A stretch of DNA of 64,000 nucleotides from Anaerolineales bacterium (GTDB taxonomy: Bacteria > Chloroflexota > Anaerolineae > Anaerolineales > UBA11579). How positions within the stretch are numbered: position 1 is the stretch's first letter; the number at the start of each line of letters is the position of its first letter. Both the position numbers and the translations under genes were made by a program. Below are positions 2,389-10,809 of this stretch, piece after piece. The notes under the pieces are model-generated. The model did not search any database and was not told where the DNA came from. It was given only the letters and a program-made list of their open reading frames with translations. The stretch is from positions 62,001 to 126,000 of the forward strand of contig JAHCIH010000002.1 of the NCBI GenBank assembly GCA_026129335.1. The letters are read 5' to 3'.

Positions 2389-2451
2389 TCGCCTGTGCCT
2401 GCGCTCGTTGCCCCACAAAACCCACCCAAATACACACCCACACCGCCCGAA

Positions 2452-2685
2452 ATGCATTTGCGTTGGGCGCGCCGCCTCAAATCGCTAGGCTTGGCCGGGC
2501 TGGCGGGGACGCTGCTGGCCTCCGGCGGCGCCTTTGCCGCCCTTGCCGCCCAGGGGTTATACATCGGCCAGCCGCTGGTCAGCCCCTGGCTGGACGCTGG
2601 GGAGTTGGGCGAACTGGCCCGGCTGCTGGAGAATCCGGGGGAAGCTGCTGCTTTTATTGAGCTGCTGCAGGGCGAGCGCGCATGA
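2452..2685 (+). CDS. Small single-pass membrane protein, first gene of the MutL-type operon
   Basis: A 77-residue protein: a short basic start (MHLRWARRLKSLG), one hydrophobic helix of about 25 residues rich in Ala, Gly and Leu, then about 40 mostly polar, acidic residues ending in a short helix. No family is recognised. It overlaps the next gene by four bases (ATGA), so translation is probably coupled. No good ribosome binding site precedes the ATG at 2452. An in-frame GTG at 2395, at the predicted transcript start, would add 19 residues (MPALVAPQNPP...), so the true start is uncertain. Its place as promoter-proximal member of a tightly linked operon suggests a subunit of the same membrane assembly. 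Confidence 0.6.
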   Translation: MHLRWARRLKSLGLAGLAGTLLASGGAFAALAAQGLYIGQPLVSPWLDAGELGELARLLENPGEAAAFIELLQGERA

Positions 2686-3425
2686 ATTTTTCCGCAGAGC
2701 ACCTCATCGGGCTGGCGCTGGCCTTGCTCATCATCCTGTCTTTCGTGGGCCGCGACAACCCGCGGCGGGCGTTCCGCTCCATCAAGGCATTCAAGGAACT
2801 GCGCCGCAGTATCGAACTTTCCGTGGAAGATGGTTCGCAGCTGCAGATCAGCCTGGGCCGCGACGGGGTGCTGGGGCCACACAGCGCGGCGGCCTTCGCC
2901 GGGCTTACCCTGCTGAACCAGGTAGCCAACACTGCCGCGGACAGCGACCAGCCGCCCATCGCCACCACAGGCGACCCCGCGCTGATGCTGATGGCGCAGG
3001 ACACCCTGCGCCACGCCTACCAGCGCCTGGAAATCCCCGAGCACTATCACCCGCTGCTGGGCCAGGCCACCGGGCTGACGCCTTTCTCTTATGCCTCAGG
3101 CAGCCTGGCGCAACTATTGGATGGCTCGGTTTCCGCCAGCGCCCTGGTGGGCCACCACGCCGAGGAGGCCGCGCTGATCAGCACGGCCAGTGGAACTCGC
3201 GGGGCGTTCAGTCTGGGCGGCAGCCCGGACCTCAGCGGCCAGGCGCTGCTTTTTGCAAGCACCGACGAGCCGCTGCTCGGTGAGGAAGTGTATGCCACCG
3301 GCGCCTACCTGGACGCCGGGCCGGCCCACCAGGCCAGCCTGCGCGCCCAGGATGTGCTGCGTTGGGTGATCATCCTGGCGGTGCTGATCACCGCCGGGCT
3401 GCCGCTGTTGGAAGGCCTGCTGTGA
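2682..3425 (+). CDS. DUF6754-like membrane protein
   Basis: A 247-residue protein with one membrane helix at the N terminus (residues 6-22), a soluble domain of about 190 residues and another membrane helix at the C terminus (VLRWVIILAVLITAGLPLL). I recall such proteins in Anaerolineae being labelled DUF6754, but I cannot check this. The soluble part contains several Gly/Ser/Ala-rich turns (GSLAQLLDGSVSASALVG, ISTASGTRGAFSLGG) and no catalytic motif I know. It overlaps both neighbours by four bases (ATGA before it, GTGA after it), strong evidence of co-translation. Function unknown; probably a membrane-bound component of the apparatus built around the MutL-like protein. Confidence 0.7.
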   Translation: MNFSAEHLIGLALALLIILSFVGRDNPRRAFRSIKAFKELRRSIELSVEDGSQLQISLGRDGVLGPHSAAAFAGLTLLNQVANTAADSDQPPIATTGDPALMLMAQDTLRHAYQRLEIPEHYHPLLGQATGLTPFSYASGSLAQLLDGSVSASALVGHHAEEAALISTASGTRGAFSLGGSPDLSGQALLFASTDEPLLGEEVYATGAYLDAGPAHQASLRAQDVLRWVIILAVLITAGLPLLEGLL

Positions 3426-4042
3426 ACTGGCGCGTGCACACGCCGGTGGCCGCGGCAGTGGCCATCGTGAGCGGCGGGCTGGTGCTGGCCAGCCTGCTCA
3501 TCCCCGGCCTGGACGAAGCGCGCAACCGGGTGCTCAACTGGGCGATATTGCTGGCCGCCCTCGGTCTGCTGCTTGGGCTGGCCAACCTGTTCCGCGTACA
3601 CTGGGAAAAGTTGCGCAACCGGCAGAACCCGGCTTACAGCGGCGTACTCATCGCTGCCATGCTGGTCACCTTTGCGGTCACATTGTGGGAAGGCAGCCGC
3701 GCCGAACTGCCCAGCTGGATATTCAACAACATCCAGGTACCGATCGAGACCAGCCTGATGGCCGTGCTGGCCGCCAGCCTGACCCTGGCGGCGGCACGCA
3801 TGTTCCAAAAGCGCAGCGACCGCATCAGCCTGACCTTTGGCATCGCTCTCTTCATCATCCTGCTGGGCAGCGGCCCGCTGTTCGGCATGGAAATCCCCTT
3901 CTTCACCCGAACCCTGACGCCGATTGTCAGCGGCTTTTTGGCCGCCGGCGCGCTGCGCGGCCTACTGATCGGCGTGGCCTTGGGCACGCTGCTCACCGGG
4001 CTGCGCGTGCTGGTTGGCGCAGACCGGCCCTACGGCGGCTGA
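3422..4042 (+). CDS. Polytopic membrane protein of the MutL-type operon
   Basis: A 206-residue protein with about six hydrophobic segments: residues near 9-27, 38-58, 74-90, 106-124, 137-155 and 160-195. The start is the GTG at 3422, which overlaps the stop of the previous gene as GTGA; the first residues are then VNWRVHTPVAAA. The frame is open further upstream, but that would run deep into the preceding gene. Loops between helices are short, with basic clusters (RVHWEKLRNRQ, FQKRSDR) on what would be the cytoplasmic side. No family is recognised. The next gene starts six bases after its stop. It is likely an integral component of the same complex as its neighbours. Confidence 0.65.
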   Translation: MNWRVHTPVAAAVAIVSGGLVLASLLIPGLDEARNRVLNWAILLAALGLLLGLANLFRVHWEKLRNRQNPAYSGVLIAAMLVTFAVTLWEGSRAELPSWIFNNIQVPIETSLMAVLAASLTLAAARMFQKRSDRISLTFGIALFIILLGSGPLFGMEIPFFTRTLTPIVSGFLAAGALRGLLIGVALGTLLTGLRVLVGADRPYGG

Positions 4043-4048
4043 ACGACC

Positions 4049-5638
4049 ATGCCGCAGACCTACCGCGACCCCGAAGAGAACCTGCCGGAATGGCTGCGCG
4101 CCCTGCGCAAACGCCAGGAGGAAGAAGCCGCCGCATCCCAACCGGAGCCCCCGGCCGAGGAAGGACGCACCGAAGAACCGGGTTGGCTGAGCGAGATACG
4201 CCAACGCTATCGCACTTCCTCCCTGGAGCAGGACGCGGAAGCCGAAACCGCCGCTCTGGAGGACACCCAGCCGCGCCCGCCCGGGCGCACGGAAAGCGAG
4301 CCTATCCAGGAGCCCTTGCCGGAACCGGAGGAAATTTCTCCTTTCTCCGACAGCGAGCCAGTTCTTGAAGAGGCTGCGCCGGCTTTCCCCACAGAGGAAC
4401 CCGCTTCCCAGCCCGCATTCGCAGACGACCCTGGCGACGAAACCTCGCATCCGGTGGTGCCCGCTTTCAGCGAAGATCCTGAGGCGCTGGGCGCCGAAAT
4501 GCCGGGCTGGCTGGAGTCTTTGCGGCCCGACGAGGGCTTCCCGCTGGAAGATGAGCGCTCCGAGGCGATGCTCCCCGAGAGCGGGCCGCTGCCCACCGGG
4601 CCATTGGCCGACCTGAGCGATGCGCTGCCCGCCAGCGAGATTGGCCAGATGGGCAAGCCGCCCGAGTTTTCCACCCGGTTGGAGGCCACCGCCAGCCAGC
4701 GGCAGCACGCCGCGGTGCTTAAGGAACTATTGCAAACCGAGCAGCAATCCGCCGCGGAGGGGCAGCCGCCCCCCCTGCCGGCGCGCATGCTGGGCATGAT
4801 CATCAGTGCGCTGCTCTTCCTGGCGGTGCTCTTTCCTCTGCTGAGCGGCAGCCAAAGCGCCGACCGGCCCGAGCCGAGTTTCTTCCCCGAAGCCGGCCGC
4901 CTATTCAACAACATCGACGTGCTGCCGGCCGGCGCGCCTGTGCTGCTGGCCTTCGAACTGCAACCGGCCCGATACGGCGAGGTGGCCCCGGCGGCCGCGG
5001 CCGTGATGCGCCACCTGCTGGACAGGCAAGCCCGCTTGGTATTCATCTCCACTGAGGAAACCGGCCCGGCGCTGGCCGAACGCCTGCTGGCCGAGCAGTT
5101 CGCCAACACGCCGGCGATATCCACCGGCAGCTACACCAACCTCGGCTACCTCTCCGGCGGCGTGGCCGCCCTGCGCAGTTTCATCAGCGACCCGCGCGGC
5201 GCGGTGCTGGGCACCCCGGAACGCGAGGATCCCTGGGCAGCTGCCCCGCTGGAAGGCATCCAGCACCTGCGCGATTTCGCCCTCATCCTCGTGGTCAGCG
5301 GGGACGCCGATACGACGCGGGCCTGGGTGGAACAGGGCGCCATCGAGCTGCCCGGCGGCCTGTTCGCCGCCACCAGCGCCCAGGCAGGACCGCTGCTGCG
5401 GCCCTATTTGCACAGCGACCCGGTCACGCTGCGTGGGCTGGTCAGCGGCGTGCACGGCGCAGTGGTCTACGAGCGGCTGCGCGGGCAGGACGGGCTGGGC
5501 CGCCAATATTGGGACGCCTACAGCTATGGCCTGGGCAGCATGGCTTTGCTCATCCTGCTCGGTGGGCTGTACAGCCGCCTGCTGCAAGCACAGGCCGAAG
5601 TGAAACCGGCCCCTGGCGGAGGCTCGCATGGTCCTTGA
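4049..5638 (+). CDS. Large membrane-anchored protein with acidic N-terminal region
   Basis: A 529-residue protein in three parts. Residues 1-245 are strongly acidic and low in complexity (Glu/Pro/Asp-rich), with a recurring short unit around a tryptophan: LPEWLRALR, EPGWLSEIR and MPGWLESLR. Then comes a membrane helix at about 247-268, an extracytoplasmic domain of about 220 residues, and a final membrane helix at about 491-511. The outer domain alternates strands and helices (LLAFELQPARYGE, LVFISTEETGPALAERLL, FALILVVSGDAD), which looks Rossmann-like, but I recognise no family. The repeated W-L motifs in a disordered acidic arm look like docking peptides for a partner. The next gene overlaps by 11 bases, so it belongs to the operon. 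Confidence 0.7.
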   Translation: MPQTYRDPEENLPEWLRALRKRQEEEAAASQPEPPAEEGRTEEPGWLSEIRQRYRTSSLEQDAEAETAALEDTQPRPPGRTESEPIQEPLPEPEEISPFSDSEPVLEEAAPAFPTEEPASQPAFADDPGDETSHPVVPAFSEDPEALGAEMPGWLESLRPDEGFPLEDERSEAMLPESGPLPTGPLADLSDALPASEIGQMGKPPEFSTRLEATASQRQHAAVLKELLQTEQQSAAEGQPPPLPARMLGMIISALLFLAVLFPLLSGSQSADRPEPSFFPEAGRLFNNIDVLPAGAPVLLAFELQPARYGEVAPAAAAVMRHLLDRQARLVFISTEETGPALAERLLAEQFANTPAISTGSYTNLGYLSGGVAALRSFISDPRGAVLGTPEREDPWAAAPLEGIQHLRDFALILVVSGDADTTRAWVEQGAIELPGGLFAATSAQAGPLLRPYLHSDPVTLRGLVSGVHGAVVYERLRGQDGLGRQYWDAYSYGLGSMALLILLGGLYSRLLQAQAEVKPAPGGGSHGP

Positions 5639-6347
5639 CCTGGACTTCATCGGCCTGCTGGTCGCCGCCGTGCTGACCTTGGTGGTGCTCTCCTATGCGC
5701 TGGGCGACCACCCCATCTTCCGCTTCGTGCTGTACTTATTCATCGGCGTCTCCGCCGGGTACGCCGCGGCAGTCGCCGTGCAAGACGTCGTTTTCCCGCA
5801 GTTGGTCTACCCTATTCTCGATGAGCTCAACGCCGCCCCCAGCCTGGATTTGGCTGAGTTGGGCGTGCGCGTGCTGTTGGTTGTGATGCTGCTGGCCAAA
5901 CTCTCGCCCAGGACGGCCCGGCTGGGCAACCCAGCCACCTCGCTGCTGGCCGGCGTGGGCGCCGCCCTGGCCGTGGGCGGAGCCGCACAAGGGACGATAC
6001 TGCCGCAAATTGGCTCGGCGGCGGGCAGTTTCGACATGGCTTCATTCAACCTCGCCTGGCAGGGCGGCTACTACCTGGAAGCTATCGAGGTGATCTTCAA
6101 CGGTATCGTGCTGGTGCTGGCCACGGTGAGCACACTGGCCTATTTCCACTTCGGAGCGGTCAGCCGCGGCAAACAGGAGCCGCTGCGCAACCTGCTGGTC
6201 GATTCGCTGGCCTGGCTGGGAGGCTTTTTCATCGCCATCGCCCTGGCCGCCTTGTTCAGCGGCGTGCTGCTGGCGGCTCTCGGGGCGCTGGTGGAGCGCC
6301 TGGACTTTTTGCAGCGCACCCTGAGCCTGCTGCTGGGGGCGCCATGA
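5628..6347 (+). CDS. Polytopic membrane protein of the MutL-type operon
   Basis: A 239-residue protein with about six or seven membrane helices (residues 7-25, 32-53, 75-92, 101-120, 150-175, 190-220). Loops are short and contain few charged residues. No family motif is recognised. The ATG at 5628 lies within the end of the previous gene, and the stop overlaps the ATG of the MutL-like gene (ATGA, 6344-6347), so its product is probably made in step with the ATPase-like protein. The obvious reading is that this and the 3422-4042 product form the membrane core to which the MutL-like protein binds; that is inference from order and overlap only. Confidence 0.65.
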   Translation: MVLDLDFIGLLVAAVLTLVVLSYALGDHPIFRFVLYLFIGVSAGYAAAVAVQDVVFPQLVYPILDELNAAPSLDLAELGVRVLLVVMLLAKLSPRTARLGNPATSLLAGVGAALAVGGAAQGTILPQIGSAAGSFDMASFNLAWQGGYYLEAIEVIFNGIVLVLATVSTLAYFHFGAVSRGKQEPLRNLLVDSLAWLGGFFIAIALAALFSGVLLAALGALVERLDFLQRTLSLLLGAP

Positions 6348-8095
6348 GCGAAGCGGTGCAGCACGGCCAGTCACTGGTGGCGGTGGACGTGGGCAGCGTG
6401 AACACTCGCGCCCACTTCTTCGATGTGGTCGAGGGTCGCTATCGCTTCCTGGCCACCGGCGAGGCGCCCAGCACAGGGAGCGCGCCGGCTTTCGACATCA
6501 ACCTGGCGGTGCTGGAGGCGCTCAACCGGCTGCAGGAGTTCGTCGGCCGCACGCTGGTCTCCAACCAGGGCCTGCACATTTCACCGGAGAACGAGGGCGG
6601 TGTGGGTGCCAATGCGGTCTGCGCGGCATTTTCCGCCGGGCAGCCGGTCAAGCTGGTCACCGTGGGCCTGCTGGAACGCGTCTCGCTGGACAGCGTCAAC
6701 AAACTGGCCACCTCCAACTACTGCCAAATCGTCGGCAGTTTCAACCTGAACGACCGGCGCAAACCGGAATTGATTGTCGATTCCATTTGCCAGACCCTGC
6801 CGGACATCATCCTGATGGCTGGCGGCACCAACCGCGGCGCCTCGCGCTCGGTGGTACGCCTGGCCAATTACCTGGCCCTGGCGCTCAAGCTCATCCCCGA
6901 GGGCAACCGTCCGCAGGTACTCTTCGCCGGCAACGAAACCCTCGCCGAGGAGTTGGACCAGCTGCTCGGCGCGCTGACCCGCGTGCACCACGTGCCCAAC
7001 ATTCGCCCCAGCCTGGACCAGGAGAACCTGGCCCCGGCCCAAGCCAGGCTGCGCGAACTGGCCTTCGAGGTGCAGGCCACTCGGCTGAACGGTTTGCGTG
7101 AACTTAAAGAGCTGGCCGAGGGACAGTTGCAGCCGGCCGCAGCGGCGATGGGGCGGATGATGCGCTTCCTCAGCACAGTGGTGGACCCGCCCAAGGGCGT
7201 GCTGGGCATCGACCTGGGTGCAGGGCACACCACGGTGGCGGCGGCTTTCGGGGGCGAACAGCAGCTGCGCGTTTTCTCTGATTTGGGCATGGGCGGCGGC
7301 CTGGCTGGCATGCTCGCCGAGACGCACCTCTCGCAAATCATGCGCTGGATACCCTACGATCTGAGCGAAGATGCAGTGCTGGACTATTTGCACAACAAGC
7401 CGCTCTTCCAGCAAACACTGCCCACCACGCTGGAAGAACTGGCCATCGAGCAAGCTGCTGCCCGCCAGGTGATGCGCCTGGCAATCGGCAAGAGCCTGCG
7501 CATGCTGCCTTCCGACGCGATTTACCCCCTACCCGGCACCGTGCCCTGGTTCGACCGCGTGTTGGTCAGCGGCAGCACCGTCAGCCGGGCGCCGCGCTTA
7601 GAGCAAAGCCTGCTGATGATTCTGGATGCCCTGCAGCCCGTAGGCATCGCCACCATCATCCTGGATCAAAACAACCTCACCCCCGCCCTGGGGGCCGCCG
7701 CTGGGCTGGACCCCCTGCTGGCCGTACAGATAATCGAATCCAACGCTTTCATGAACCTGGGCACGGTCATCTCGCCCGTGGGCAGGGCGCGTGGTGGTCC
7801 CTTGCTGCGCATCCAAATGGTACGCAACGGCCAAAAAGAGCCGGTGGTGGATGTGCACGAGGGCGGCCTGCGCACCATCGCGCTACCGCAGGGCCAGGTG
7901 GCCGATCTGTACGTGCAGCCGCTGCAAAACGTGAACATTGGCCTGGGGCCGGGGCGCGGCGGCTGGGTGCGCCGCGTGGTCGGCGGCGTTTTCGGACTGA
8001 TTATTGACGCACGCGGCAGGCCCGTCCAAGTGCCCGCTGGCTTCAACCAGCGTCGTGAGGCGCTGTTGGCCTGGCAGGAAGCCTTGAGGATGTAG
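6344..8095 (+). CDS. MutL/GlmL-like ASKHA superfamily protein
   Basis: A 583-residue protein of the glutamate mutase MutL family (ASKHA/actin-like ATPase fold). Visible motifs are VAVDVGSVNTRAHFF at 12-26 (phosphate-1 loop), ILMAGGTNRGASRS at 156-169 (the MutL GGT signature), a second loop LGIDLGAGHTTVAA at 287-300, and LVSGSTVSRAP in the adenosine region. In clostridia MutL lies beside cobalamin-dependent glutamate mutase, where its role is presumed accessory. Here no mutase subunit, cobalamin gene or 2-methyleneglutarate gene is present, and about 120 residues follow the usual family length. The gene is flanked by membrane-protein genes and overlaps the upstream one. The better guess is an ATP-dependent switch or motor for a membrane complex, not a mutase partner. 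Confidence 0.8.
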   Translation: MSEAVQHGQSLVAVDVGSVNTRAHFFDVVEGRYRFLATGEAPSTGSAPAFDINLAVLEALNRLQEFVGRTLVSNQGLHISPENEGGVGANAVCAAFSAGQPVKLVTVGLLERVSLDSVNKLATSNYCQIVGSFNLNDRRKPELIVDSICQTLPDIILMAGGTNRGASRSVVRLANYLALALKLIPEGNRPQVLFAGNETLAEELDQLLGALTRVHHVPNIRPSLDQENLAPAQARLRELAFEVQATRLNGLRELKELAEGQLQPAAAAMGRMMRFLSTVVDPPKGVLGIDLGAGHTTVAAAFGGEQQLRVFSDLGMGGGLAGMLAETHLSQIMRWIPYDLSEDAVLDYLHNKPLFQQTLPTTLEELAIEQAAARQVMRLAIGKSLRMLPSDAIYPLPGTVPWFDRVLVSGSTVSRAPRLEQSLLMILDALQPVGIATIILDQNNLTPALGAAAGLDPLLAVQIIESNAFMNLGTVISPVGRARGGPLLRIQMVRNGQKEPVVDVHEGGLRTIALPQGQVADLYVQPLQNVNIGLGPGRGGWVRRVVGGVFGLIIDARGRPVQVPAGFNQRREALLAWQEALRM

Positions 8096-8097
8096 CC

Positions 8098-9165
8098 ATG
8101 CCCAACAGCCCCATCGCCCCCGTCTCCTACATTCAGCCGCTGGTCACCCTGCGGCGGCCGCGCCGCCTGGCCGCGGAGGGTGAAGTGCTGGTAGGCGTGG
8201 GCCAGGCCGTCGCCTCGGGGGATGCGCTGGCGCGCAGCAGCCTGGGCGCCGGCCACCGCATGCTGGACGCCGCCCGCGCGCTGGGCTTGTCGCCCGAAAA
8301 AGCACAGGCCGCCATCCCGCGCGAGGTGGGCGAGCAAGTGGAAGAGGGCGACATCATCGCCGGGCAGCGCCGCGCGGGCGCCCGCCAACTGCGCGCACCT
8401 GCCGGCGGGGTCATCGCCGCCATCAGCGAAGGGCAGGTGCTGCTCCAAGTGACCGACGAACGCTCGTTCCTGCCCGCCCGTGTGCCCGGCATGGTGGTAA
8501 ACGTCCACCCAGGCTACGGCGCCACCATCGAATTCGTTGGCGCCTGGGTGCAGGCGGTGTGGGGCAACCGCCAGCTGGGCGACGGTTTCCTGCATGTGGT
8601 CGGCGAAGGGCCAGAGCAGTTGCTTACTGCCGACCAGGTGGATATGAGCCTGCGCGGCGCCATTCTGGTGGCCGGGCGCTGTGAGCAGCCCCAGTCGCTG
8701 GAACTGGCCGCTGAGGTGCCGGTGCGCGGGCTGATACTCGGCAGCATGGCCACGCAGCTGGGCCCGGTGGCCGCGGCGCTGCCCTACCCCCTGGTGCTCA
8801 CCGAGGGCTTCGGCTCAGCACCGATGAACGGTGATGCCTTCCGGCTGTTTTCCAACCACAACGGCGACGCAGCCACGGTGAACGCGCAAAAAATCGATGC
8901 GGTCACTGGTGACCGCCCGGAGGTCTTCATCCCGGTGAAGGATGCCGGCAGCCCACCCCAGCCGCTGCCACCTCAAACCTTCCGCATCGGCCACGCCGTG
9001 CGCGTCCTGACCGGGCCGCAAAAGGGCGGCTTGGGCGAAATACGCAATATCTCGCTTTCCCCGCTGCCCTTGCCCAGCGGGCTGCGCGCCGCGGCGGCAG
9101 AAATAGTACTAGAGGACGGCAGTCAGATATTGGCCCCGCTGGTAAACTTGGAAATTCTCGGGTGA
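8098..9165 (+). CDS. Hypothetical protein with lipoyl-like hybrid domain and C-terminal KOW-like motif
   Basis: A 355-residue soluble protein starting two bases after the MutL-like stop. Residues 1-150 contain segments such as EGEVLVGVGQAVASGD, VGEQVEEGDIIAGQ and LRAPAGGVIAAISEGQVL. These have the beta-hairpin pattern of barrel-sandwich hybrid (lipoyl/HlyD-like) domains. The middle carries the hydrophobic stretch VRGLILGSMATQLGPVAAAL. The last 60 residues include IGHAVRVLTGPQKGGLGEIR, a good KOW-like motif. No signal peptide or membrane helix is seen, so it is probably cytoplasmic and contacts the MutL-like protein or the membrane core. I do not recognise the full family, and the domain calls are by eye. 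Confidence 0.65.
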   Translation: MPNSPIAPVSYIQPLVTLRRPRRLAAEGEVLVGVGQAVASGDALARSSLGAGHRMLDAARALGLSPEKAQAAIPREVGEQVEEGDIIAGQRRAGARQLRAPAGGVIAAISEGQVLLQVTDERSFLPARVPGMVVNVHPGYGATIEFVGAWVQAVWGNRQLGDGFLHVVGEGPEQLLTADQVDMSLRGAILVAGRCEQPQSLELAAEVPVRGLILGSMATQLGPVAAALPYPLVLTEGFGSAPMNGDAFRLFSNHNGDAATVNAQKIDAVTGDRPEVFIPVKDAGSPPQPLPPQTFRIGHAVRVLTGPQKGGLGEIRNISLSPLPLPSGLRAAAAEIVLEDGSQILAPLVNLEILG

Positions 9166-9189
9166 TGATTCCCGCTAGGAAATTGCGCC

Positions 9190-9867
9190 ATGCTCGATGA
9201 CCTCGACCTGGATATCCCAGAAGCTTCGCCCCCGCCCAAAAAGCCTTCGGGAAACCGCAGCTTTGTTTTGCTGGTCGCGCTGCTGGGCGGGTTGCTGCTG
9301 CTGGCGCTCATCGGCATGGTCTATTACGCGGTGGCAATACTTCCACAGCAGCAGGTCGCGCAACCCGGCCAGACTGAAGTGATCCAACTCACCGAAACCG
9401 AAATCGCCGAGCAAATTATGGCCACGAGTAGCGCCGCGCCCAGCGACACGCCGCAGCCGGAACCCAGCGCCACCTTCACGCTGCGGCCCACCGCCACTGA
9501 GACCCAGGCACCCACCGAAATCACCCCCATCTTCACCAGCGCCGCCCAGGCAGCCACGGCCAGTGTGGAAGCTTTGCTGACCCAAGCCGCCGTGGCGCAG
9601 ACCGAAGCGGTGGAGGCCGCAGCAGCCGAAGGCGCTGAAGCCGCTTCGGAGAGCGGGGACGAAGCGGCAGCCGAGGAAAGCGCGGAAGAGTCAGGTGAGG
9701 CTGCTGCGGCCTCAGGGGACGGCGAACCCTCGCCCACGCCGACCGTGACGCCTAGCACGCTACCGCAAAGCGGCTTCGTGGACGAAGTCGGCGCGCCCGG
9801 CTTGCTTGCCGCCGCGCTCCTGCTGCTGGTCATCATCTTCATGGCGCGCAGATTGCGCACGGCTTAG
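9190..9867 (+). CDS. Bitopic surface protein with Thr/Pro/Glu-rich stalk and LPxTG-like C terminus
   Basis: A 225-residue protein, last of the operon. A cytoplasmic start of about 22 residues leads into a membrane helix (residues 23-48, FVLLVALLGGLLLLALIGMV). A stalk follows that is rich in Ala, Thr, Pro, Glu and Ser. The C terminus reads LPQSGF, then about 25 hydrophobic residues, then RRLRTA, which is the architecture of a sortase sorting signal with Ser in place of the usual Thr. An alternative is a plain second membrane helix. The stalk would be expected outside the cell. The upstream gap of 24 bases keeps it in the operon. No catalytic motif is present. Confidence 0.65.
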   Translation: MLDDLDLDIPEASPPPKKPSGNRSFVLLVALLGGLLLLALIGMVYYAVAILPQQQVAQPGQTEVIQLTETEIAEQIMATSSAAPSDTPQPEPSATFTLRPTATETQAPTEITPIFTSAAQAATASVEALLTQAAVAQTEAVEAAAAEGAEAASESGDEAAAEESAEESGEAAAASGDGEPSPTPTVTPSTLPQSGFVDEVGAPGLLAAALLLLVIIFMARRLRTA

Positions 9868-9885: not shown

Positions 9886-10809
9886 ATGAAGCCGTCACTA
9901 ATTTCCCCTCTCGGGCTTTTTCTGTTCCTAATGCGCAGAAACGATAACGCGTGGCGATCTTTGTCTGATGCGGAGAAGAATCTGGTGCTCAAAAACAATG
10001 CTCGCCACAATCAGGAGCGACCAGACTACGCTGACCCCACCCTTTACCAGGCCGGAAAATCATACGACGCAGTCTCTCCCGATCCCTTGGATACAAAGAC
10101 CAAGTCTTTCAAAGAATTCTTGGAGGAAAACCATCCGGAGTCGGTTCTAGAAATTGGACCGGGTAGCGGTTATCTAACCAAATACATTGTAGAAATCGAG
10201 TCTGTAAAAGACTATACAGCAGTAGACATCAACAAGGCCTTTCTAGACTATCTGGAACCCCGCCTGGCAAAAGTCAAATCGAAGAAGCATGGATTTACTT
10301 ATGCGTTATTGCCAGGGGACATCAACGATTTGGATTTGGCTGGAAAAACATATGATGCCATCGTATTCCTCAGCGCTGTACATCACATACCCGACCGGAT
10401 TAAATTTTTCACTGTTTTAGGGTCATTGCTAAATCCAGGCGGAAAAATTTACACTCAGGAACCAGCACATTACATACCTCGCAAGCTCTATTTGCTCCGC
10501 AAGTTCCAGCATACGTACAGGCGCAAAGAATATTGGTCAAATCCAGATAACTACAGTACGCACCATTTCTGCACCTTGGAAGAATTCGAACAAATTGTTG
10601 CCAAACTAAAAGACTTGCAAATTTCGAATTACTATTTTTATCGTATCAACTTTCCATTCCCTCGACTCTTCAAAAAACTAATAACAAAGGGTCTTGCTAT
10701 ATCGGGAAAACATCCTGAGCCAGATGGAACTTTTAGTACTCGCAGTCGAAAATCCATAATGCGTTTTTTCGCTGATAACCTTAACGTTCAATTCAAGCGC
10801 ATCACATAG
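9886..10809 (+). CDS. Class I SAM-dependent methyltransferase, AT-rich
   Basis: A 307-residue protein with a clear class I methyltransferase core: VLEIGPGSGYLTKYI (motif I, near residue 87) binds S-adenosylmethionine, followed by YTAVDINKAFLDYL, the acidic loop LLPGDINDLDL and AIVFLSAVHHIPD. The C-terminal third is Lys/Tyr/Phe-rich (YYFYRINFPFPRLFKK). The substrate is unknown; similar proteins occur in glycan clusters. Its base composition is strikingly lower in GC than all its neighbours, with many A- and T-ending codons, which suggests recent acquisition. It starts 18 bases after the previous stop and is convergent with coaBC, only eight bases apart, with no convincing terminator between. 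Confidence 0.8.
   Translation: MKPSLISPLGLFLFLMRRNDNAWRSLSDAEKNLVLKNNARHNQERPDYADPTLYQAGKSYDAVSPDPLDTKTKSFKEFLEENHPESVLEIGPGSGYLTKYIVEIESVKDYTAVDINKAFLDYLEPRLAKVKSKKHGFTYALLPGDINDLDLAGKTYDAIVFLSAVHHIPDRIKFFTVLGSLLNPGGKIYTQEPAHYIPRKLYLLRKFQHTYRRKEYWSNPDNYSTHHFCTLEEFEQIVAKLKDLQISNYYFYRINFPFPRLFKKLITKGLAISGKHPEPDGTFSTRSRKSIMRFFADNLNVQFKRIT

Follow-up and report, generated by a model that had tools for sequence, protein, structure and literature searches.

Gene layout of the locus

The stretch of Anaerolineales DNA analyzed here (contig JAHCIH010000002.1 of assembly GCA_026129335.1; 64,000 nucleotides, hereafter the window) carries eight tightly packed open reading frames (ORFs), g1 to g8, on the + strand at 2395-9867. 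One of them, g6, encodes a MutL-like protein of the ASKHA superfamily. Seven of the eight form one conserved genetic unit consisting of g1, a membrane core (g2-g5) and a soluble pair (g6-g7). Neighboring frames overlap by 4, 4, 11 and 4 bases or are separated by gaps of 6, 2 and 24 bases, and all eight lie where a preliminary description of the window, made from its sequence, had placed them. The G+C content of this part of the window is about 66%. Genes were called as the longest ORFs, and some of the called starts are too early; g1 probably begins at the ATG at 2452 rather than at the GTG at 2395. The window's own genome (G000), which belongs to the phylum Chloroflexota, is 72% complete in an assembly of 2.0 Mb and has one PF13941 gene.

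2395..2685, +: g1, small protein with one marginal hydrophobic stretch; 20 of 41 Chloroflexota loci have a relative, and in other phyla relatives adjoin MutL-g7
2682..3425, +: g2, DUF6754 protein (PF20539), predicted order transmembrane (TM) segment, cytosolic domain, TM segment (Pfam, hydrophobicity)
3422..4042, +: g3, six-TM membrane protein of an unnamed family (hydrophobicity, conservation)
4049..5638, +: g4, acidic N-terminal part, predicted cytosolic, with three P-x-W-L motifs, then TM segment, predicted ectodomain and C-terminal TM segment
5628..6347, +: g5, multi-TM membrane protein of an unnamed family (hydrophobicity, conservation)
6344..8095, +: g6, MutL-like ASKHA protein of 583 residues with an extra C-terminal domain (D555-x-R557, W577) (Pfam, alignment, model)
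8098..9165, +: g7, soluble partner with an RnfC-type barrel-sandwich hybrid domain, a swivelling beta/beta/alpha domain and a C-terminal KOW/SH3-like domain (model)
9190..9867, +: g8, lineage-specific surface protein with a TM segment, an Ala/Thr/Glu-rich spacer, and LPQSG followed by a TM segment and a basic tail

In a Pfam scan g2 matched DUF6754 (PF20539; E 7.8e-23); g1, g3, g4 and g5 matched no Pfam family and no NCBIfam family above cut-off. Hydrophobic peaks of 19 residues number one in g1 (marginal), two in g2, six in g3, one in g4, five in g5 and two in g8. These peaks make g2, g3, g4, g5 and g8 membrane proteins and g1 a possible one, in line with the minimum of five that the preliminary description had expected. 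The second, C-terminal hydrophobic stretch of g4 is weaker in the window; two such stretches are the rule among its relatives. Hydrophobicity and the placement of basic residues predict that the g2 domain lies inside and the g4 loop outside. Searches of PDB sequences with profiles of g2-g5 gave nothing usable (best E 0.28-0.99). The idea that the soluble domains of g2 and g4 are homologous to each other was unsupported (hhalign probability 4%), and so was homology between g3 and g5 (0.9%).

Conservation of the seven-gene unit

To follow the genes through the phylum, we searched 201 Chloroflexota genomes for the MutL-like protein, DUF6754, glutamate mutase E (GlmE) and methylmalonyl-CoA (MM-CoA)-type mutase. 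A MutL-like match occurs in 115 genomes and DUF6754 in 44, and the two go together: 42 of the 44 DUF6754 genomes have a MutL-like protein, compared to 73 of the 157 without DUF6754. We then used profile searches on 41 loci, namely the window and 40 stretches around MutL-like genes (two from the genome G174). The MutL-like protein was found in all 41, g7 and g4 in 31 each, g5 in 23, g3 in 22, g2 in 21, g1 in 20 and g8 in 8. Type 1 loci contain g1-g2-g3-g4-g5-g6 in the order seen in the window. Type 2 loci keep MutL and g7, frequently preceded by a zinc-ribbon protein bearing P-x-W-L motifs, and have lost g2, g3, g5 and the membrane end of g4. Wherever a Chloroflexota copy of DUF6754 left room for a next gene, that gene was g3 (27 of 27). 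The eight-gene unit around the MutL-like protein that had been proposed earlier therefore stands as a functional unit, but one of seven genes: g8, which has relatives in only 8 of the 41 loci, was added locally and lies outside the conserved unit.

The unit extends well beyond Chloroflexota. Scanning a DUF6754 alignment against 84,980 species genomes gave 384 relatives, and the best 80 were retained. Their bacterial hosts are Chloroflexota, Bacillota, Planctomycetota, Elusimicrobia, Latescibacterota, Eisenbacteria, Oligoflexia and Bacteriovoracaceae; archaeal records among the same 80 come from Bathyarchaeota, Methanomethylicota and Culexarchaeum. Outside Chloroflexota g3 follows DUF6754 in 45 of the 47 copies with room, and g3-g4C-g5 stand in order in 33 of 37. 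Co-occurrence of the MutL-like protein with g7 was tested at 34 of the 50 loci outside Chloroflexota among the best 80 of 384, in 33 genomes; the same 31 of these 33 DUF6754 genomes have both a long MutL-like protein and g7. Copies of DUF6754 are often doubled, and the Bacillota genome JANQLZ01 has at least five, some of them head to tail; it contains several g2-g3-g4-g5 quartets (L111, L116, L123), some in tandem.

Coupling is also seen in Planctomycetota. Among 196 genomes, 47 have DUF6754, 44 have a long MutL-like protein and 43 have both (Fisher p 2e-37; this and our other Fisher tests ignore kinship between genomes). The count of 44 omits G242, G270, G307, G323 and G411, whose matches are weak or short (E 2e-29 to 3e-4). 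Seven of the 14 Planctomycetota loci fetched carry g1-MutL-g7-g2-g3-g4-g5 in a single run. The neighborhood analysis of MutL homologues that the preliminary description had called for found linkage at other loci and in other phyla. That archaea and bacteria of other groups carry the same gene set suggests that it encodes a basic envelope machine.

Gene neighbors at the distant loci include biotin carboxylase parts in archaea and hut and two-component genes in Bacillota, which look incidental and gave no function. In two related Planctomycetota genomes (L231, L232) the seven-gene operon is preceded, a few genes away, by genes that read as ExbB/ExbD-like. The DUF6754 proteins themselves vary: in Planctomycetota and elsewhere they have an extra N-terminal part that is either FN3-like after a signal sequence (named by sequence reading) or made of HEAT repeats (by Pfam).

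Two features are more restricted. The cytosolic tails of g4 and of the upstream proteins in type 2 loci carry tandem P-x-W-[LM] motifs, with 267 in 33 Chloroflexota proteins compared to 6.1 after shuffling, and up to 43 in one protein. They usually follow a zinc ribbon; the g4 of the window, with its tail region at 4049-4700, has no zinc ribbon. We ruled out P-x-W-L as a universal docking site for g6 because the g4 proteins examined from other phyla have no such tail. The second feature is g8. Its signal, LPQSG in the window, becomes LP-x-TG when eight aligned rows (window included) are reduced to a consensus, which bears out its earlier description as an LPxTG-like surface protein. In G000, nine matches to sortases reach E 1e-3 or better and eight of these exceed the Pfam cut-off; sortases above that cut-off occur in all 21 genomes of the relatives set, G000 included. 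Proteins of the g8 type may therefore be anchored.

The MutL-like protein g6 and its probable partner g7

g6 matches Pfam MutL (PF13941) at E 2.1e-59, with 201.9 bits against a cut-off of 27. All of its nucleotide motifs are present: phosphate-1 (D15-G17-T21), phosphate-2 (D290-G292) and adenosine (G410). Together with a structure model of the ASKHA fold (predicted local distance difference test (pLDDT) 92, predicted template modeling score (pTM) 0.92), these support the earlier naming of g6 as a MutL-like ASKHA protein, and the ATPase of the system belongs to a known superfamily. Only G410, D555, R557 and W577 are invariant among 39 aligned Chloroflexota MutL-like proteins, and the last three sit in a C-terminal domain that GlmL lacks. 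The phosphate motifs are retained in 35 of 39 core-linked Chloroflexota proteins, in 9 of 18 unlinked ones and in 43 of 53 from other phyla, three of the exceptions there being truncated by the end of a contig.

Given its Pfam match, g6 could be an ordinary GlmL/MutL chaperone for a cobalamin-dependent mutase encoded elsewhere, with the membrane genes as functionally unrelated neighbors. G000 does have an MM-CoA-type mutase, on contig C23 (the operon is on C12), and B12-binding domains elsewhere as well. Within Chloroflexota, moreover, this mutase is commoner with DUF6754 (43 of 44 genomes, compared to 111 of 157 without; p 4e-5). However, g6 reaches only 83.1 bits on the NCBIfam GlmL equivalog NF040745, whose cut-off is 475, and is 583 residues long with its conserved C-terminal domain, compared to 461 in a true GlmL (L053). 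Neither the ORF list nor the Pfam scan contains a mutase gene in the operon. GlmE scores above cut-off in 4 of the 201 genomes, G000 not included, and two of these four belong to the 115 genomes in which a MutL-like protein was matched. MM-CoA-type mutase occurs in 154 of the 201 and is not associated with the MutL-like protein (91 of 115 genomes with it, 63 of 86 without; Fisher p 0.40), so the genes do not always accompany cobalamin mutases.

Individual genomes point the same way. G070, which is 99% complete, has the entire operon and no MM-CoA-type mutase match. G174, from the same order as the window, has a DUF6754 operon (L050) plus the separate 461-residue GlmL (L053), which lies between genes for a B12-binding glutamate-mutase small subunit and mutase E, followed by a methylaspartate ammonia-lyase-like gene (names by sequence reading; GlmE confirmed by profile score). 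In a tree of 110 MutL proteins, the window protein groups with other core-linked Chloroflexota proteins (support 96), and two GlmL proteins cluster together, apart from the core-linked ones; the core label changes 16 times on this tree, compared to 35.7 in shuffles. With the coupling of core and MutL across phyla added, a role as an ordinary mutase chaperone is very improbable. GlmL/MutL of glutamate mutase and its ornithine relative (PF13941, NF040745, NF040744) share a Pfam family and the ASKHA core with g6, but g6 has the C-terminal D-x-R...W domain, the partner g7, and a membrane core instead of mutase genes. Judged by its sequence, g6 is not the mutase helper GlmL. Doubt about the annotated MutL role was thus well placed, in that g6 does not serve glutamate mutase. 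The accompanying statement that no cobalamin or mutase gene is present is correct for the neighborhood but not genome-wide.

The model of g6 also invites a structural comparison. Its top match is FtsA, with Z 14.8 (root-mean-square deviation (rmsd) 9.2, 270 aligned) or 14.5 (rmsd 4.1, 256 aligned), followed by acetone carboxylase (Z 14.3), PilM (Z 12.6, rmsd 5.6, 272 aligned) and diol dehydratase reactivase (Z 12.0, 2d0o); the list is filled by the core and barely samples the C-terminal domain (about 465-583). The term actin-like, used in the preliminary description, fits these matches. FtsA and PilM, the nearest solved folds, bind the cytosolic tails of membrane proteins in the FtsA-FtsN and PilM-PilN pairs, according to the available part of PMC7613929.

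One reading of this likeness is a pilus- or divisome-like platform in which g6 is a structural, possibly filament-forming scaffold of the FtsA/PilM type and the core assembles a surface fibre or g8-like proteins. PilM is also the best, if weak, PDB sequence match of the A1 profile (E 0.015). Degenerate ATP sites among the relatives fit a scaffold, the tandem P-x-W-L tail of g4 could be scaffold-bound, and the LPxTG-like g8 adjoins in a genome with sortases. However, Pfam scans named no pilin, PilN/O/P/Q, secretin or tubulin-like gene in or beside the operon, and Pfam and NCBIfam scans found no divisome or type IV pilus partners among the eight proteins. g8 and the P-x-W-L tail have the narrow distributions given above. 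The ASKHA matches spread widely: kinases and reactivases score within about 3 Z units, Hsp70 and activators not far below. In addition, g6 differs from FtsA and PilM in having g7 and the C-terminal domain. We consider such a platform unlikely.

Window g7 has only sub-threshold matches in Pfam and NCBIfam, to RnfC_N (E 0.012), KOW and RNA polymerase hybrid domains. Its model (pLDDT 92, pTM 0.76) contains an RnfC-type barrel-sandwich domain at 48-122 (Z 8.4, rmsd 2.7 over 65 residues), a swivelling domain at 149-280 (Z 11.4 to UPF0107, 10.4 to aconitase X) and a KOW domain at 291-355 (Z 8.4). The first and last of these folds confirm what had been read from the sequence as a hybrid/KOW protein. 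In one relative, L186, RnfC_N exceeds the Pfam cut-off (E 2.7e-8, 34.2 bits against 25.6).

The barrel-sandwich hybrid domain, common to g7 and RnfC/NqrA, raises the prospect of an ion- or electron-moving complex on the Rnf/Nqr plan, with g7 as the peripheral subunit and g6 as an ATP-dependent activator. Rnf/Nqr too has six-TM subunits, as the available part of PMC4014512 describes, and dehydratase activators are among the fold neighbors of g6. But in g7 swivelling and KOW domains follow instead of NADH/FMN or 4Fe-4S domains, for which Pfam and NCBIfam gave no match, and no flavin, NADH or iron-sulphur domain scores above cut-off in any of the eight proteins. Alignments of g6 and g7 contain no nearly invariant Cys, and the g3 and g5 profiles have no PDB match. 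A complex of this kind seems quite improbable to us.

Gene order ties g7 to g6. In three locus sets it comes directly after MutL at 9 of 11, 10 of 14 and 39 of 44 positions. In three Planctomycetota loci (L211, L212, L221) MutL and g7 are fused in single ORFs of 824, 835 and 702 residues, in which the MutL C-terminal domain is missing and, in two, the barrel-sandwich part of g7 is doubled. These natural fusions, along with gene order and co-occurrence, make it likely that g6 and g7 act together as physical partners. The membrane machine envisaged in the preliminary description holds insofar as a membrane core is genetically coupled to the MutL-like protein, which may power or gate it; g7 belongs with the ATPase and not with the membrane part.

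A known precedent for such a pair is the diol/glycerol dehydratase reactivase (DdrA type), where an ASKHA domain works with a swivelling domain. In the available part of PMC7674605, glycerol dehydratase reactivase has a four-domain plan, and the alpha subunits of B12 dehydratase reactivases unite an ATPase domain and a swivelling domain in one chain. Here they are split over g6 and g7, and joined in one chain in the Planctomycetota fusions; for the swivelling domain the likeness is one of fold only. Scans of the operon and its neighbors found no dehydratase or small-subunit gene, and the barrel-sandwich and KOW domains of g7 are additional.

The pair also occurs by itself. Bacillota have extra core-less MutL-g7 pairs in which the barrel-sandwich part of g7 is doubled, and in L191 and L196 such paralogue pairs adjoin genes for an ABC ATPase and an FtsX-type permease. 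One of the pairs in L191, L196 and L187 lies downstream of genes reading as a histidine utilisation operon.

A candidate envelope complex

With moderate confidence, we propose that the seven genes encode an envelope complex: a four-protein membrane core and a cytosolic, ATP-dependent g6-g7 clamp, with g1 as an accessory. By analogy, g6 would bind ATP as FtsA, PilM and B12-enzyme reactivases do. Its opening and closing would be relayed by g7, whose swivelling and barrel-sandwich domains may bind g2 at its cytosolic DUF6754 domain. A change of state in the core would follow, allowing the ectodomains (the g4 loop and, in other phyla, the FN3-like part of g2) to assemble, export or activate something at the surface. 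In the window's lineage, g4 would have gained its cytosolic P-x-W-L tail and g8 would be an added surface protein. We draw the reactivase parallel from the published four-domain plan (PMC7674605) and the scaffold parallel from FtsA-FtsN and PilM-PilN (PMC7613929), as the available parts of both papers present them.

Several observations weigh against this proposal. Most Chloroflexota genomes with a MutL-like protein (73 of 115) are without DUF6754, g7 is present but unlinked in 9 of 9 Chloroflexales-type genomes, and in Bacillota many MutL-g7 pairs have no core nearby. Core-less proteins and pairs of this sort imply that the pair has some other use as well. Of the 18 Chloroflexota proteins without core linkage, 9 have broken phosphate motifs, and the phosphate-2 Asp is replaced by Gly in six archaeal rows (L127, L197, L198, L204, L213, L218), so hydrolysis cannot be essential everywhere. 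The rest of the phosphate-2 motif is kept in those six, and perhaps they bind ATP but do not split it; L207, a further archaeal row, does not figure with the proteins lacking phosphate motifs. The excess of MM-CoA-type mutase in DUF6754 genomes also counts on this side.

More tentatively, the envelope complex may represent an undescribed class of prokaryotic envelope machine, spread over several phyla and archaea, with a core of unknown families and a split reactivase-like clamp that is re-used with, for example, FtsX-type ABC permeases. We regard the system as new as a whole because four of its seven families are unnamed in Pfam and NCBIfam and DUF6754 has no function; g2 is a member of that family, which is not a described system. 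In the open-licence literature we found no description of such a system and no paper naming DUF6754, PF20539 or PF13941. The available part of a Dictyoglomus genome paper concerns DNA-repair MutL and an ordinary glutamate mutase, which are other than this system. A defence function was considered too and rejected, as no PADLOC model matched any of the eight proteins.

If the proposal is correct, a single envelope system would account for genes labeled 'MutL' and 'DUF6754' in Chloroflexota, Bacillota, Planctomycetota, Elusimicrobiota and several groups of archaea, and such 'MutL' genes would not be for amino-acid fermentation. Proteins without family or function would gain a set of partners, a division into core and clamp, and testable residues (D15, D290, D555 and R557). 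Complete genomes carry the gene set, which makes a deletion feasible.

On either side of the operon, the window contains genes of a different character. A methyltransferase gene at 9886-10809 starts 18 bases past g8 and has a third-position G+C of 0.46, compared to 0.73-0.87 in the operon; with so low a value it looks recently acquired and outside the unit. Upstream, at 530-2457 on the minus strand, are divergent genes for a DUF92 membrane protein and a bacterial PH-domain membrane protein. As called, these ORFs overlap, which places the real starts further inside.

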